Shown here one piece after another: positions 3,406-9,758 of a stretch of 41,446 nt of DNA. The stretch is from Halobacteriovorax sp. Its GTDB lineage: Bacteria; Bdellovibrionota; Bacteriovoracia; Bacteriovoracales; Bacteriovoracaceae. Under the pieces are notes generated by a model. That model was not told where the DNA came from, did not search any database, and worked only from the letters and a program-made list of their open reading frames with translations. The stretch covers positions 1 through 41,446 of the forward strand of contig PBCC01000030.1 of assembly GCA_002716825.1 (NCBI GenBank), read 5' to 3'. Made by a program: the position numbers and the translations under genes. The stretch's first letter is position 1. Each line of letters begins with the position of its first letter.

Positions 3406-3500
3406 TGGCTTGTCATTCATAAAAATGATTTCTCGGCATGGATATGTCTTTAAAACTACGATGTTTTAGGGGCGCTGAGTTAACAGCAAAGGAGTGTGGA

Positions 3501-3710
3501 ATGGCCAAGCCAAGTGCTGAGCAGGTGGAGTTAGGGTCTCTAACCGAGGAACAGAAAATTCCTCTAGATTCCCTATCAAGTATGACGGGATTCCCAGTCG
3601 ACTTCATCAAGAAAGAACTTCTTCTTGAAGAAGACCAGCTTTCTCTGGCGGAGCTTCGTCGTTCGATGCTGACCTATTTAGAGTCAAATTCGGAAATGTT
3701 GCAAAATTGA
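3501..3710 (+). CDS. Small conserved-looking protein with HTH-like helix pattern
   Basis: Unrecognised 69-residue acidic protein. Residues 22-62 read PLDSLSSMTGFPVDFIKKEL followed by LSLAELRRSMLTYL, a helix-turn-helix plus helix pattern resembling small excisionase or CopG-like DNA binders, but I cannot assign a family. The ATG at 3501 is chosen over the upstream ATG at 3438 because AAAGGAG (3488-3494) lies 6 bases ahead. It has its own promoter (3376-3405) and terminator (3759-3787), so it is a monocistronic unit. There is no signal peptide or membrane segment. Confidence 0.7.
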   Translation: MAKPSAEQVELGSLTEEQKIPLDSLSSMTGFPVDFIKKELLLEEDQLSLAELRRSMLTYLESNSEMLQN

Positions 3711-3787: not shown

Positions 3788-3841
3788 GTCTTATTTGTAA
3801 GATATCATGGTTTTCAGCCACTAATGACTACGAGGTACACC

Positions 3842-4582
3842 ATGAGAGTTCTAGCTTTTCTTCTTTTCGTAGTTTTGAGCCGCCCGGCCTTTTCTTTTGA
3901 TCATGAGCATCTTAACTTTAGTAAAATTCTGGCTCAAGATGTTAGCGTAAGTGGTGCACAGACTCTGGTGAATTATAAAAACCTCAAAAAAAATCCGGTA
4001 CAACTAGACGAATACTTAAAGACTTTATCAGCAGTCAAAAAGTCTGAGTACGATAGCTTTAGCTCAAGCCAACAGTTAGCTTTCATGATCAATGCCTATA
4101 ACGCCTTTACCATTAAGTTGATGCGCGATCACTGGCCTGTAAAATCAATAAAAGATCTTGGGGGATTATTTAGTTCTGCCTGGAAAAAAGAATTCTTTAG
4201 CTTACTTGGACAAAAGAGACATTTGGACTGGATTGAACATGAAGTCATTCGAAAAGATTTTAATGAGCCTCGCATTCACTTTGCCGTTAACTGTGCTTCT
4301 ATGGGATGCCCACCTTTAAGACAGGAAGCTTTCAGAGCGAGCGCAATTGATCATCAATTAGAAGAACAGGCTAAACTTTTTTTAAACGACACTACAAAAA
4401 ATAAGTATGAAAATGGTGAAGCAAAGCTGTCTAAAATTTTTGATTGGTATGGCAGCGACTTTACTAAAGACGGGGGAGACCTCATCAATGCTCTTAATCA
4501 GTGGCGTGAGAAAAAATTTCCAAGTAATGCCAAAATTACTTTTTTAAATTACGACTGGGCCCCAAACTCAACGGAACAATAA
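3842..4582 (+). CDS. Exported DUF547 protein
   Basis: 246-residue protein with a signal peptide (residues 1 to about 18, MRVLAFLLFVVLSRPAFS). The body matches DUF547: AFMINAYNAFTIKL, then FNEPRIHFAVNCASMGCPPL, the most characteristic motif with two Cys in NCASMGCP, and LSKIFDWYGSDF. DUF547 proteins are periplasmic or surface proteins of unknown activity. The ATG at 3842 has GAGG 6 bases upstream; the open frame extends to 3824 but that start lacks a site. The TAA is followed directly by the ATG of the next gene, so the two are tightly coupled. Confidence 0.85.
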   Translation: MRVLAFLLFVVLSRPAFSFDHEHLNFSKILAQDVSVSGAQTLVNYKNLKKNPVQLDEYLKTLSAVKKSEYDSFSSSQQLAFMINAYNAFTIKLMRDHWPVKSIKDLGGLFSSAWKKEFFSLLGQKRHLDWIEHEVIRKDFNEPRIHFAVNCASMGCPPLRQEAFRASAIDHQLEEQAKLFLNDTTKNKYENGEAKLSKIFDWYGSDFTKDGGDLINALNQWREKKFPSNAKITFLNYDWAPNSTEQ

Positions 4583-6706
4583 ATGCTCAAAAAACTTTTT
4601 CTAGCGAGCTTGGCAGTTCTATCTGTCGCTCTCTTTTTTTACTTTGATCTTGATCAAAAACTTACTTTTTCTTGGCTTAAAGAAAATCAAGAGGCTTTAA
4701 TAAGTCTTGTCGAGACACATAAGCCACTGTCAATCCTAATGTATATTGGTCTCTATATTTTAGCGACAGGACTTAGCCTCCCTGGTGCAACCATCTTAAC
4801 CTTGGCCGGGGGAGCCATTTTTGGCTCTATCATTGGGACCGTGTATGTTTCTATCGCGAGTACCCTTGGTGCGACTTTGGCCATGCTCATTGCCCGAACT
4901 TTTTTGCAAGATTGGGTTGGTAAAAAATTTAGTAAAAAAATTAACTCAATCAATGCGGGCGTTGAAAAAGAGGGAGCTTTTTATCTGCTAACTCTCAGAC
5001 TTGTTCCGGTCTTTCCATTCTTCTTGATTAATCTAGGTATGGGACTAACGCGTATGAAGGTGTTTACCTTTATGTGGGTGTCTCAACTGGGAATGCTGCC
5101 TGGAACTTTCGTTTATGTGAATGCAGGCTCTCAGTTATCAAGACTTGAAAGTGCTGCTGGCATTATTTCACCAGGAGTTCTTGGAGCCTTTGCGCTTCTT
5201 GGTGTTTTCCCATTAGTCGCCAAGAAATTACTAGATTTTCTTAAGGCTAAAAAAGTATACGCAAAGTTTAAAAAACCTAAGAAATTTGGCTTTGATATGA
5301 TCGCCATTGGAGGCGGCTCTGCCGGATTAGTGACGGCCTATATAAGTGCAGCGGTTAAAGCTAAAGTAGCGCTTATTGAAAAACACAAAATGGGAGGTGA
5401 TTGCCTCAATACTGGCTGCGTTCCATCGAAAGCTCTTTTGAAAGCAGCGAAGCACGTCCACCACGCAAGGCATTTGGAAGATTTTGGAGCGAGTGTTTCA
5501 GAAGTCAAAGTCGATTTCAAAAAGGTCATGAGCCGCGTCCATCAAGTGATTAAAGATATTGAGCCTCACGATTCTATAGAGCGCTACACGTCCTTAGGTG
5601 TTGATTGCTTAGTAGGTGAGGCGAAAATAACCTCTCCGTGGGAAGTCACATTAGATGGGAAAACCTATACAACGAAAAATATTACAATCGCCACGGGAGC
5701 CTTTCCCTTTGTTCCACCCATTCCCGGAATTGAGAAAGTGAATTATCTGGTCTCTGATAATCTATGGGACATCAATGAATTGCCTAAAAACCTTATTATT
5801 TTAGGTGGTGGTCCTATTGGACTTGAAATGGCCCAAGCCTTTTCCCGCTTAGGCTCTAATGTAACTATTGTCGAAATGGCGCCTAGGCTAATGAGTAAAG
5901 AAGATGCCGATGTGGCGGAGGTTATATCCAAACGTTTGCAGCGTGAAGGTGTTAAGGTGTTAACTTCCCATAAGGCAGTTCGCTTTGAAGATGAAAAAAC
6001 ATTGATCGTTCAATACGAGGGAAGAGAGATTTCGCTAGAATTTACAGACATACTTGTTGCCGTAGGAAGAAAGGCAAGAGTTCAAGGCTTTGGGCTGGAA
6101 GAGCTTGGAGTTAAGCTACGTGGCAACGGTACAATTGAGACCGACGAATACCTGCGAACCAATTATCCTAATATTTTTGCCTGTGGAGATGTAACTGGAC
6201 CGTATCAGCTCACTCATATGGCGGCCCATCAGGCTTGGTACTGCGCTGTGAATGGGATTTTTGGCTTTCTTAAAAAATTTAAAGTTGATTACTCCGTAGT
6301 TCCTTGGGCGACTTACACTGATCCAGAAGTCGCAACAGTTGGGCTTACCGAAGATAGTGCACGGGAGAGTGGCGTCGACTATGAAGTTTATAAGTATAAA
6401 CTAGATGATCTCGATCGCGCGATCGCGGATGGTGAAACCGATGGCTTCGTTAAGGTTTTAGTCGAGCCGGGTAGCGACAAAGTGATTGGTGCCACAATTG
6501 TTGGAGCTGAAGCCAGTGTCAGTATTCTAGAGTTTGTTCAAGCAATGAAGCAGGGCTTTGGCCTAAATAAAATACTTGGCACGATACACCCTTATCCTAG
6601 TCTTGGTGAAGCCAATAAGTATTTAGCTGGTATTTGGAAAAATGCAACTAAGCCTGCTAAGCTATTAGTGTATTTAGAGAAATTCCACTCGTGGCGAAGA
6701 GGATAG
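4583..6706 (+). CDS. VTT/DedA membrane domain fused to a flavin disulfide oxidoreductase
   Basis: A 707-residue fusion. Residues about 1-215 form a polytopic TVP38/TMEM64 (VTT, DedA-like) domain with LSLPGATILTLAGGAIFG and RLVPVFPFFLINLGMGL. Residues about 235-707 are a class I pyridine nucleotide-disulfide oxidoreductase: FAD motif GGGSAG (243-248), redox pair Cys274/Cys279 in GGDCLNTGCVPSK, NAD(P) motif ILGGGPIGLE, and FACGDVTG. The C-terminal motif HPYPSLGE (669-676) has Tyr671 where lipoamide dehydrogenase has its catalytic His, as in mercuric reductase; however the C-terminal Cys-Cys pair and the N-terminal heavy-metal domain of MerA are absent. The natural substrate is unknown. It starts directly at the stop of the DUF547 gene. 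Confidence 0.88.
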   Translation: MLKKLFLASLAVLSVALFFYFDLDQKLTFSWLKENQEALISLVETHKPLSILMYIGLYILATGLSLPGATILTLAGGAIFGSIIGTVYVSIASTLGATLAMLIARTFLQDWVGKKFSKKINSINAGVEKEGAFYLLTLRLVPVFPFFLINLGMGLTRMKVFTFMWVSQLGMLPGTFVYVNAGSQLSRLESAAGIISPGVLGAFALLGVFPLVAKKLLDFLKAKKVYAKFKKPKKFGFDMIAIGGGSAGLVTAYISAAVKAKVALIEKHKMGGDCLNTGCVPSKALLKAAKHVHHARHLEDFGASVSEVKVDFKKVMSRVHQVIKDIEPHDSIERYTSLGVDCLVGEAKITSPWEVTLDGKTYTTKNITIATGAFPFVPPIPGIEKVNYLVSDNLWDINELPKNLIILGGGPIGLEMAQAFSRLGSNVTIVEMAPRLMSKEDADVAEVISKRLQREGVKVLTSHKAVRFEDEKTLIVQYEGREISLEFTDILVAVGRKARVQGFGLEELGVKLRGNGTIETDEYLRTNYPNIFACGDVTGPYQLTHMAAHQAWYCAVNGIFGFLKKFKVDYSVVPWATYTDPEVATVGLTEDSARESGVDYEVYKYKLDDLDRAIADGETDGFVKVLVEPGSDKVIGATIVGAEASVSILEFVQAMKQGFGLNKILGTIHPYPSLGEANKYLAGIWKNATKPAKLLVYLEKFHSWRRG

Positions 6707-6707
6707 T

Positions 6708-7100
6708 ATGAGCGAACAACAAGAACCCATAGGTGAATTGGCCATCAGAGTCTTAGCCATGCCAGAGCACACCAATCCCGCTGGCGATATTTTTGGTGGT
6801 TGGGTGTTATCGCAAATGGATATAGCCGGTGGACTCTTTACAAAGAAAATTTCAAAAGGTCGCACCGTCACTATCGCAGTTGATTCTATGACCTTTAATA
6901 AGCCGGTATTAGTTGGTGATACACTTTGCTGTTACGTGAGTCTTTTAAAAACTGGGAAAACATCTTTGTCGGTTAAGATTGAGACATGGGTATCAAGACA
7001 GTACAGCGAAGGGCGTGAGAAAGTGACAGAAGGTGTGTTTACTTATGTCGCTGTCTCCTCTGATCGCAAGCCGCGTTTAATTAACGATCAGTACCTTTGA
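6708..7100 (+). CDS. YciA-type hotdog-fold acyl-CoA thioesterase
   Basis: 130-residue cytosolic thioesterase of the acyl-CoA hydrolase (YciA/BFIT) class that releases CoA from acyl-CoAs. The signature NPAGDIFGGWVLSQMD (about 22-37) is present, followed by TVAVDSM-like and FNKPVLVGD segments. Length matches YciA. The ATG lies one base after the preceding stop, with GAGGA (6698-6702) upstream, so it is the third gene of the DUF547 operon. The end overlaps the convergent glycosyltransferase by 13 bases. Its link with the oxidoreductase is only positional. Confidence 0.88.
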   Translation: MSEQQEPIGELAIRVLAMPEHTNPAGDIFGGWVLSQMDIAGGLFTKKISKGRTVTIAVDSMTFNKPVLVGDTLCCYVSLLKTGKTSLSVKIETWVSRQYSEGREKVTEGVFTYVAVSSDRKPRLINDQYL

Positions 7101-7777
7101 TTGAGGTCTAGGCCCTTTTCGTACCAGCGATTCATCATAGTATGGCTTAGTCCTAAAAAATAACCTATTTTTAAAAACTGATTCATCACTGCTTGTCGCC
7201 AAATACCATTTTGTCTAAAACGGATTGATGACGTTGTGGAGCGTGCTTTTAATCTGATCGGGCGGCGAGAGCTTTTGAGCCTTTTACAAAAAATTGTGTC
7301 TTCAAACACATCCACCTCACCAAAAGGGCGGGGTTTATCGCTTAGAAGACTAACGTGACTAAAAAGGCAATGATCTAGGTAGTAAACACCTTGAAGCTCT
7401 CCGCGAATATGGTTGGACCAAAATGAAGTAAATGTTAAAAGCGGGTGGTTATCGTCAAACTTATGAGTGAAGGCTCCCCATGAGGGATTTTTAAGCTCTA
7501 GCAGTTGAGAAAATGCGGTGGGCTCTAGTGTGCTTCTTGGATGATGAAAGATGACCCAAGGGGTGTTTACATACTTGATGCCGTCGTTGAGTCTTCCTGC
7601 GCGATTAATGGCCTTTGACTTTACATAGCTAAAACCACGCTTTTTGCATTCGATCTCCATGCCATCGTCACTAGGCGTATCAATAACAATGACATTTTGA
7701 CCTTGAAGCGTATCAAACAGCGTCTGCGTCCAATCTCTTTTAAGGTCTTTATAGGTTGGAATAACAATGGTTAGCAA
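7088..7777 (-). CDS. Arsenosugar-cluster family 2 glycosyltransferase
   Basis: About 229-residue soluble GT-A glycosyltransferase starting LTIVIPTYKD. It resembles the rSAM/selenodomain-associated transferase 2 family (TIGR04283) now linked to arsenosugar biosynthesis: N-terminal Rossmann half with NRAGRLNDGI (acceptor loop), EDTIFCKRLKSSRRP and the C-terminal RFRQNGIWRQAVMNQFL segment. Start choice: TTG at 7777 with GGAGG 6 bases upstream; the TTG at 7780 in the same frame is the alternative. The start overlaps the arsM end, and the Shine-Dalgarno is inside the last arsM codons. Last gene of the arsS-arsM operon. The sugar donor cannot be read from sequence. Confidence 0.85.
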   Translation of the reverse strand: MLTIVIPTYKDLKRDWTQTLFDTLQGQNVIVIDTPSDDGMEIECKKRGFSYVKSKAINRAGRLNDGIKYVNTPWVIFHHPRSTLEPTAFSQLLELKNPSWGAFTHKFDDNHPLLTFTSFWSNHIRGELQGVYYLDHCLFSHVSLLSDKPRPFGEVDVFEDTIFCKRLKSSRRPIRLKARSTTSSIRFRQNGIWRQAVMNQFLKIGYFLGLSHTMMNRWYEKGLDLNQRY

Positions 7778-8817
7778 CAAGCGCCTCCGCTTGGCGCTTG
7801 ATCGGCTCCATCGTAAGGGACATCCATGCCACAGCCCTTGAAAATACCGTAGTGATTTTTAAAATCACCGACAAACTCAAAATGTTCAGCAAAGCGACTT
7901 TTTTGCAGCATTAAATAGGTATTGCCGCACACTGATTCCCATTTTCCACTTTCAAAAAGATGGTGGTTATCTAGGAGGAAGCCTTTTGGAGCAGTAGTCA
8001 GCGTCCCTTTATATTTTGCAGCTTGACCAAAGTCTTCGCAAGCATCTTCTAGTTCAGGTATTTTAAACAAGCGATAAGTGACAGAGTAAAAACGAGCAGG
8101 AGCAATCTTAGATTTGATTTCATCATCACCTATAATGAGCTCACGCGAACTCACTATACGTGGGTCACTAAAGCCAGACGCCTTAGCAAAACGATTGAAG
8201 TCGTTCCAATAAAGCGCGCCACCAAGGCATTCTCCGCGAATGACGGGATCAATTTGTAATTCATTGGCTAAACGTCTGTCAGTATAAACGTCAGAGAAAT
8301 AGAGCTCTCCGCCTTCCTTGAGTAGGTTATAGGCATCAGTTAAAACTTTTTTCTTATCTTCAACTAAATTAATGACACAATTAGAGACAATAACATCAAA
8401 TGAGTTTGGTGACAGATCAAGCTTATCAAGTCCTTCTATGTCGCCTTCCAAAAATGAGACATTATTAAAGCCAAATTTTTCACTATGAAAGGGAATATTT
8501 CTTCTGGCTACTTCAATTTGACTTGGGGTCATATCTACGCCAACCACTTTTCCCGTTTTTCCAACCAGATATGAGAGGGCAAACACATCGCGGCCAGCGC
8601 CGCTGCCAAGATCTAGAACGTTAGCACTCTCGAGTTGTTGTGGAATGACGAGCCCGCAACCATAATATTTTTGGTGAACCTCATCGGAGAGAACCGATAA
8701 GGCTTTTTTCACGTAGGGGGCAAGTGCTTCATCTGTGCAGCAAGCATCGGTTTTAAGATCGGCATTTGTTTTTAGCGTTTCGCCGTAATAAGTCTTAACA
8801 TCATTCTTAATACTCAT
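7771..8817 (-). CDS. arsM: Arsenite S-adenosylmethionine methyltransferase ArsM
   Basis: 348-residue SAM-dependent methyltransferase converting As(III) to methylated arsenicals. Motif I is VLDLGSGAGRDV (67-78). The arsenic-binding cysteines of the family are in place: Cys54 in YYGCG, Cys147 in SNCV and Cys197 in GECLGG, plus Cys26-Cys27 near the N-terminus. ELYFSDVYTDRR and LEDACEDFGQ are also characteristic. It ends in SGGACC, a terminal Cys pair seen in many ArsM-like proteins. ATG at 8817 shares ATGA with the arsS stop, and a GGAGGA site lies upstream inside arsS. The product probably feeds the ArsS radical-SAM step. Confidence 0.93.
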   Translation of the reverse strand: MSIKNDVKTYYGETLKTNADLKTDACCTDEALAPYVKKALSVLSDEVHQKYYGCGLVIPQQLESANVLDLGSGAGRDVFALSYLVGKTGKVVGVDMTPSQIEVARRNIPFHSEKFGFNNVSFLEGDIEGLDKLDLSPNSFDVIVSNCVINLVEDKKKVLTDAYNLLKEGGELYFSDVYTDRRLANELQIDPVIRGECLGGALYWNDFNRFAKASGFSDPRIVSSRELIIGDDEIKSKIAPARFYSVTYRLFKIPELEDACEDFGQAAKYKGTLTTAPKGFLLDNHHLFESGKWESVCGNTYLMLQKSRFAEHFEFVGDFKNHYGIFKGCGMDVPYDGADQAPSGGACC

Positions 8818-9758
8818 GTGAGACTTCCTCCGCACGATGAACCTGCACCAGCACTACAGCCATGGCAATGTTCTCCCCATACGATTTCATTGTTTATTAA
8901 CTGATCAAAATTTTCGATGGTCCAAATGGTTGGCTTCTTAACTGAGTTTAAATCGAGCATTTGATTAAAGTCGCAGTCATAGATCTGTCCGTCATAACCA
9001 ATAGAAACAAGATTAAAGCACATCATGTTAGCAGCGGCATTTGGGTTAAATGCATTCACCAAGGTTTCAAGATATTCTTCGTATTTTCCTTGGCGATTAA
9101 GATCATCTAGAAAGCGCTTGATGGGCATATTTGTGATGGTGTAGAGATTATCAAAGTCGATATCAAACCATTCTTTCAAATTCTTTTTATAATCAGATTG
9201 TAGCTTGTCTTGAGCTGGAGGAAGAGTTGGCCCAGTAGGATTGTAAACGAGGTCGAGTTGTAGTCCTTGTCCTTTACCGTAACCGAGTTGATTCAGTTGT
9301 CTTAGTGCACGTATGGACTTATCGAAGACACCATTGCCACGTTGCTTGTCGACATTGTCTTGTGAGTAGCAGGGCAGAGATGCAACGATTTGTACTTTGT
9401 GGTCAGCCAAAAACTGGGCAAGGTCTGCTTGTCCTGGTTCGTACATCACAGTGAGGTTGCAGCGATCAAGCACAGTAATATTTCTTTTTCGAACTTCGCT
9501 TACAAACCATCTAAAGTTTGGATTCATCTCTGGAGCACCACCTGTGAGATCGAGCATGGAGATACTGGATTGATCTATTAGGTGCAGTAAGCGATCAAAC
9601 CCTTCTCGCTCCATATTCTCTGTACGTGTTGGGCCAGCTTCTACATGACAGTGGCGGCAAGCTTGATTGCAAAGTTTCCCTACATTGATTTGTAACGTAT
9701 CAATACTTTTTCGTGTGGTTTGAATCTTATTTTGTGTCAGTCTAGTTTTAAAGTTCAT
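8814..9758 (-). CDS. arsS: Arsenosugar biosynthesis radical SAM protein ArsS
   Basis: 314-residue radical SAM protein. The 4Fe-4S cluster motif is CNQACRHC (Cys30, 34, 37), followed by DLTGGAPE (SAM-binding GGE-type motif). The C-terminal DUF3641 region carries CFNLVSIGYDGQIYDCDFNQML and ends in HCHGCSAGAGSSCGGSLT. Family members (radical SAM/selenodomain, TIGR04167) work with ArsM and are proposed to transfer the 5'-deoxyadenosyl group to dimethylarsenic. Some relatives use selenocysteine in this tail; here the positions are ordinary Cys. First gene of the operon. ATG at 9758 has AAGG about 4 bases upstream. Confidence 0.93.
   Translation of the reverse strand: MNFKTRLTQNKIQTTRKSIDTLQINVGKLCNQACRHCHVEAGPTRTENMEREGFDRLLHLIDQSSISMLDLTGGAPEMNPNFRWFVSEVRKRNITVLDRCNLTVMYEPGQADLAQFLADHKVQIVASLPCYSQDNVDKQRGNGVFDKSIRALRQLNQLGYGKGQGLQLDLVYNPTGPTLPPAQDKLQSDYKKNLKEWFDIDFDNLYTITNMPIKRFLDDLNRQGKYEEYLETLVNAFNPNAAANMMCFNLVSIGYDGQIYDCDFNQMLDLNSVKKPTIWTIENFDQLINNEIVWGEHCHGCSAGAGSSCGGSLT

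Follow-up and report, generated by a model that had tools for sequence, protein, structure and literature searches.

In the usual scheme, arsenosugar synthesis starts with uptake by phosphate transporters and reduction, and in its later steps a phosphorylase removes adenine and a glycosyl group is transferred. The central steps are methylation by ArsM and adenosylation by ArsS (PMC12159101, PMC8552651; these and the other published accounts cited here were available in part, and statements drawn from them refer to those parts). Methylation acts on trivalent arsenic, and pentavalent forms arise in air (PMC8552651). A second described system is the COG0398 subfamily of DedA proteins, whose commonest fusion is to the oxidoreductase domains PF07992/PF02852 (PMC10127716). 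We identified both systems side by side in a 41,446-nucleotide contig of Halobacteriovorax sp. (PBCC01000030.1, called the window in its full length; source assembly GCA_002716825.1 with 83 contigs, 2.6 Mb and a completeness of 74%). We show here that the arsenosugar gene set and a module consisting of a DUF547 protein and a VTT-flavoenzyme fusion are kept together in many bacteria. The genes of the window that make up the two sets are as follows.

3824..4582, plus strand: DUF547 protein of 252 amino acids (PF04784, 88.6 bits against a cut-off of 27); an in-frame ATG at 3842 is the start used in the preliminary description.
4583..6706, plus strand: VTT(DedA/TVP38)-pyridine nucleotide-disulphide oxidoreductase fusion of 707 amino acids (PF09335, 89.4 bits; PF07992, 217.8; PF02852, 106.2).
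6708..7100, plus strand: YciA-like acyl-CoA thioesterase of the 4HBT type (PF03061, 61.2 bits; NF007970, 150.8, under the cut-off of 162).
7088..7780, minus strand: arsenosugar-type, TIGR04283-like glycosyltransferase (TIGR04283, 104.9 bits, under the cut-off of 182).
7771..8817, minus strand: ArsM-like arsenite methyltransferase (PF13847, 117.2 bits; best NCBIfam model NF008823, 169.8, under the cut-off of 263); a GTG start at 8835 is possible.
8814..9758, minus strand: ArsS, the arsenosugar radical SAM enzyme (TIGR04167, 445.3 bits against a cut-off of 300; PF12345, 171.1 bits).

Since the plus-strand genes are separated by gaps of only 0-1 nt and neighbouring genes on the minus strand overlap, the data indicate two operons. 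They are convergent, and their 3' ends, in the thioesterase and glycosyltransferase genes, overlap by 13 nt. The preliminary description of this DNA had proposed an arsS-arsM-glycosyltransferase set facing a DUF547/VTT-flavoenzyme/thioesterase operon, and open reading frame (ORF) calls together with family matches confirm that all six genes are present. The cluster cysteines of ArsS (C30, C34 and C37) are invariant in an alignment of ArsS sequences, and the methyltransferase is a clear relative of ArsM. Relatives of the glycosyltransferase in similar clusters score 154.7 and 249.7 against TIGR04283. An additional ArsS-ArsM-glycosyltransferase set is present elsewhere in the sister genome, G135, on a separate contig (L076, G135:C46), near Pst phosphate transporter genes and with no fusion in the stretch examined.

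The association between ArsS and the fusion was counted in two samples, 290 genomes from the window's phylum and 299 from the phylum to which G323 belongs (the genome with locus L213, titled Burkholderiales). In the window's phylum ArsS scores over its cut-off in 42 of the 290 genomes, 24 of which also carry the fusion. The fusion lies no more than 10 kb from ArsS in 12 of these 24, where random placement predicts 0.19. In the second phylum, ArsS over cut-off is found in 113 genomes, a full-length fusion (E<1e-200) in 45, and both in 24; in 12 of these the two again lie no more than 10 kb apart, where random placement would give 0.15; both expectations assume uniform gene positions and independent genomes, and the sampled genomes are related. 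A control made within the same genomes, and so less affected by the uniform-position assumption, gives a consistent picture. Among the 82 VTT-domain genes listed for these 24 second-phylum genomes, ArsS is no more than 10 kb away from 12 of the 26 fused genes (one fusion with an in-frame stop being counted as fused) and from none of the 56 unfused genes (Fisher test, 1.2e-7). The preliminary description had suggested looking for the fusion within 10 kb of arsS/arsM in other genomes, and it occurs next to ArsS far above chance in two phyla and at named loci of several more. Gene orders vary. Ten of the 12 mapped ArsS-linked fusions in the window's phylum are co-directional with ArsS, and the convergent arrangement is restricted to the window and its sister genome, which belong to the same genus. 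In the second phylum six of ten mapped cases are co-directional and four are divergent.

A contig scan with the ArsS alignment provided a further set of loci, of which the best 80 of 587 confirmed were examined with flanks of up to 10 kb each way. These 80 named loci include a few Bdellovibrionota contigs that are also in the phylum sample (e.g. L147, L150), and neighbours were counted from ORFs that we called ourselves and profiles that we built, in place of curated annotation. The fusion is present in 8 loci, a VTT gene alone in 10 and a flavoenzyme alone (over 300 bits) in 8, for 21 of 80 loci overall; in five (L148, L157, L181, L191 and L216) each half has a gene of its own in the same neighbourhood. 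All of these VTT and flavoenzyme genes are within 4.5 kb of ArsS, even though the interval from 4.5 to 10 kb makes up a large share of the searched sequence. When DUF547 genes are included, 32 genes fall inside 4.5 kb and 30 of them share the strand of ArsS; DUF547 is a recurrent partner of the module at ArsS. The record titles of loci with the module include Burkholderiales, Thiotrichaceae, Rhodospirillales, Deltaproteobacteria, Isosphaeraceae and Latescibacteria. Known companions of ArsS served as positive controls and behaved in the same way: among the 80 loci, ArsM was found in 28, an AhpD-like protein of the TIGR04169 type in 18, methylthioadenosine phosphorylase in 7 and PiT in 6 (the PiT label is our own reading, the NCBIfam matches of that protein being under cut-off). 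A near-full-length fusion (E<1e-200) is encoded in 11 of the 77 genomes of these loci (one locus was left out and two genomes have two loci each), and the locus maps place it no more than 10 kb from ArsS in 6 of the 11. In the other 5 the maps do not show it inside this distance; in one of these, G322 (locus L211, Parahaliea mediterranea TN14-10), which carries both genes, the fusion may lie about 11 kb from ArsS on the same contig.

The fusion protein consists of the VTT domain PF09335 (residues 69-184) followed by PF07992 and PF02852 (residues 238-679). Conservation was assessed in an alignment of 30 fusions, in which two elements of the flavoenzyme half stand out.

5402..5419, plus strand: codons of the redox-active pair C274-x4-C279 (MGGDCLNTGC); Cys at both positions in 30 of 30 aligned fusions.
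6587..6610, plus strand: codons H669 to E676 with the His-Glu dyad; both residues unchanged in 30 of 30.

We take the dyad to play the same role as in dihydrolipoyl dehydrogenase and glutathione reductase. Two further cysteines are frequent, C342 (29 of 30) and C534 (26 of 30). C342 (codon 5606-5608) is a third cysteine outside the redox pair, and the dihydrolipoyl dehydrogenase (E3) structure 1ebd has no Cys at the aligned position. No column before residue 274, that is, in the membrane half, has Cys in 10 or more of the 30 sequences. The last cysteine of the window's protein is no later than residue 554, and there is no conserved C-terminal Cys column among the aligned fusions. In the predicted structure the flavoenzyme half is confident and the VTT half weaker. 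The VTT part probably belongs to COG0398, an assignment made through the published link between that subfamily and such fusions. Transmembrane thiol relays of the DsbD/CcdA type have conserved cysteines in the membrane domain, and a relay of this type is ruled out for the fusion by their absence from its membrane half.

The fusion scores just over the cut-off of the dihydrolipoyl dehydrogenase model TIGR01350 (421.6 against 408.8 bits), in line with a housekeeping E3. That reading, or mere chance adjacency to the arsenosugar genes, is extremely improbable, being contradicted by the co-localisation statistics and by a separate E3, 37% identical, that adjoins an E2-type gene (E2 judged by eye) elsewhere in the genome; a housekeeping E3 is ruled out on the latter ground. 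The gene neighbours of the fusion are DUF547 and the thioesterase, not the E1 and E2 genes of a 2-oxoacid dehydrogenase.

The preliminary description had viewed the flavoenzyme as MerA-like, reducing arsenicals directly, with the VTT half exporting them. The C-x4-C redox pair sustains the comparison with MerA as far as it goes. The fusion lacks the C-terminal cysteine pair and the N-terminal metal-binding domain, however, and its score against the MerA model TIGR02053 (375.9) does not reach the cut-off of 454.45; the score and the missing C-terminal pair rule out MerA itself. In favour of reduction and export, published work connects DedA proteins with indium extrusion and, through a cited study, with selenite uptake (PMC8679861), and neither the genome of the window (74% complete) nor the sister genome gave an over-cut-off Acr3 match. 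Most fusions, on the other hand, are not near arsenosugar genes, and overall we regard direct reduction with export as unlikely.

We tentatively favour a different reading, in which the DUF547/VTT-flavoenzyme module works with the arsenosugar operon, its fusion acting as an NADH-dependent dithiol reductase that is anchored in the membrane and maintains methylated arsenic in trivalent form. In this flavoprotein NADH would supply electrons to FAD, these would move on to the C274/C279 pair, and the resulting dithiol would be delivered at the inner face of the membrane. In arsenosugar clusters it could there maintain the trivalent arsenic and dimethylarsenic required by ArsM and ArsS, or re-reduce intermediates oxidised by oxygen. 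DUF547, exported across the membrane, would act on the opposite side as a thiol protein or an enzyme, and the same module would also serve outside arsenic metabolism. As methylation requires trivalent arsenic, a membrane-bound and presumably NADH-using dithiol reductase beside ArsS would meet that need. A more specific version is rather doubtful: a dedicated and previously unrecognised NADH-driven, membrane-bound dimethylarsenic(V) or dithiol reductase, perhaps membrane-loading, that would feed ArsS in arsenosugar and arsenolipid synthesis, would have the exported DUF547 protein as its partner and would have been recruited repeatedly, fused in some cases and split in others.

Several observations weigh against the reductase reading. 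About half of the ArsS genomes that carry the fusion have it elsewhere, and 59 of the 80 named ArsS loci have no VTT or flavoenzyme gene in the available sequence; because the module is present in no more than 21 of the 80, it is not required for the arsenosugar pathway. The membrane half, having no conserved cysteine, cannot relay thiols across the membrane, and both the preference for NADH and the electron path are read from motifs. Comparison of a DUF547 model with solved structures gave no convincing match (best Foldseek E of 1.8; best VIA-align Z of 3.8, none reaching 5), a result that is silent on the novelty of the fold. Finally, 68 of the 96 fusions that we placed on a tree (built by a quick method from a set that is not a random draw, ArsS loci having been taken first) have no ArsS within 10 kb. 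Since most fusions sit away from ArsS the module is not arsenic-specific, and a function confined to arsenic is ruled out. The functional link between the flavoenzyme and arsenic that was originally proposed is supported in one respect, as adjacency to ArsS is far above chance, but not as a general property of fusions, most of which have no arsenosugar gene nearby.

The ArsS label changes 14 times on the fusion tree, at least 12 of these on well supported branches, compared with 24.5 times for shuffled labels. Judged from this tree, ArsS linkage is clustered but repeatedly gained or lost, and at least 12-14 changes mean that it is not one inherited block. In the three groups of the tree set, 16 of 50, 19 of 39 and 2 of 7 loci have DUF547 no more than 1.5 kb from the fusion; for the second phylum, flanks were taken from 40 of the 45 fusion genomes, one stop-broken fusion being absent from the 39 in the tree set. 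DUF547 also adjoins the fusion where neither ArsS nor ArsM is nearby (9 of 36 and 13 of 27). These arsenic-free pairs, and the presence of Pst and PiT phosphate transporters in the same neighbourhoods, are consistent with a general envelope redox or stress module that enters arsenosugar clusters through shared induction by oxidative stress or phosphate starvation, with no direct biochemical link. We consider this distinctly unlikely, as shared induction would not usually leave genes so close to ArsS, and co-directional with it, in distant lineages.

One arsenic-free gene order is recurrent: fusion, DUF547, solute-binding protein, permease, ATPase and CDP-alcohol phosphatidyltransferase, often with a fatty-acid hydroxylase. 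It is found in six second-phylum genomes (L242, L244, L250, L251, L254 and L260), with the hydroxylase in most, and its solute transporter presumably resembles E. coli YnjBCD. Such neighbours bear on the main rival of the reductase reading, a lipid module with a scramblase-type VTT half that handles unusual membrane lipids and, in arsenosugar clusters, serves the last steps, from arsenosugars to arsenosugar phospholipids. Fatty-acid hydroxylase genes occur near ArsS in 8 of the 80 named loci, within 4.5 kb in 7 of the 8, and Synechocystis makes arsenolipids (work cited in PMC12159101). The COG0398 subfamily is described as the DedA group closest to the eukaryotic scramblases TMEM41B/VMP1, with a role as UndP flippase unlikely (PMC10127716); this placement also makes the earlier label of an exporter-like membrane part doubtful. 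However, the hydroxylase is near the fusion in only 8 of 50 and 5 of 39 loci, no phosphatidyltransferase was identified among the genes examined beside the operons of the window, and a lipid role leaves the disulphide reductase half unexplained. We regard the lipid module as possible, if on the doubtful side.

Other neighbours of the fusion recur as well. At three loci a different radical SAM protein takes the apparent place of ArsS next to an ArsM relative and the fusion (L137:6688-8696, L139:6357-7298 and L256:7912-8877); its best NCBIfam match is Rv1681-like and far under cut-off. A relative of this radical SAM protein directly follows the fusion in L249, L253 and L255, where ArsM was not detected. 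A DUF3179 protein is found near the fusion in five loci (L225, L226, L228, L253 and L255).

The DUF547 protein shows invariant residues N90, Y92, N93, E138, H152, C157, C162 and P163 in a 39-sequence alignment. Its AlphaFold2 model has a mean pLDDT of 95.7, and the N-terminal hydrophobic stretch, the first helix of the model, looks by eye like a signal peptide. It is possibly an exported enzyme whose C-x4-C acts in catalysis or binds a metal. One small ORF lies upstream.

3438..3710, plus strand: 90-amino-acid ORF upstream of DUF547; no family match; conserved at the corresponding position in the sister genome (L094:15110-15382).

At the sister locus the thioesterase is missing and the fusion and glycosyltransferase genes overlap by 4 nt, and a single-sequence model found no counterpart in the 80 named ArsS loci. 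These absences rule it out as a conserved third member of the module. Only one further thioesterase match (49 bits) was detected among 81 stretches, and the gene is apparently a passenger specific to this genome.

To our knowledge, no genes have been assigned to the steps that follow ArsM and ArsS on the way to arsenosugars and arsenolipids, or to the supply of reducing power for these steps. A module that distant lineages keep no more than 4.5 kb from ArsS, mostly co-directional with it, provides a concrete list of candidates. Because many unrelated bacteria keep both gene sets side by side, the membrane redox enzyme is likely a missing partner of the arsenosugar pathway. DUF547 and the DedA-oxidoreductase fusion, both families of unknown role, also gain a first testable substrate class. 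The arsenosugar genes and the fusion architecture were each known already; within the open-access literature searched, in the parts available, we found no paper linking DUF547 or the VTT-flavoenzyme to arsenosugars, and this link would be the new element.

In Synechocystis PCC 6803 arsM is slr0303 (PMC4284471), and slr0305 is one of three VTT proteins and groups with E. coli YdjX/YdjZ (PMC3836016). The tag numbers alone suggest that these are neighbouring genes. The arsM gene is not induced by short arsenic treatment (PMC4010505), which speaks against expecting simple arsenic induction.

The locus resembles several described systems in part. Like the arsinothricin cluster arsQML, it encodes a membrane protein and a radical SAM enzyme alongside ArsM, but the radical SAM enzyme is a different one and the available part of that account does not mention a VTT-flavoenzyme (PMC8552651). 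The window's fusion has the same PF09335 plus PF07992/PF02852 architecture as the published COG0398 DedA-oxidoreductases, whose account, in its available part, makes no mention of arsenosugar genes or DUF547 (PMC10127716). The fusion shares with dihydrolipoyl dehydrogenase a TIGR01350 score over cut-off and the His-Glu dyad, but it is joined to a membrane domain and is not beside E1/E2 genes. With MerA it has in common an FAD/disulphide oxidoreductase with C-x4-C; it differs in the added membrane domain and in the absence of both the N-terminal metal-binding domain and the C-terminal cysteine pair, which in MerA binds Hg(II). The closest pathway is that of Synechocystis with ArsM and ArsS. As in that organism, the window encodes ArsS (over cut-off) and an ArsM-like methyltransferase, here in one operon with a TIGR04283-like glycosyltransferase; unlike it, the window has a DUF547/VTT-flavoenzyme operon attached.

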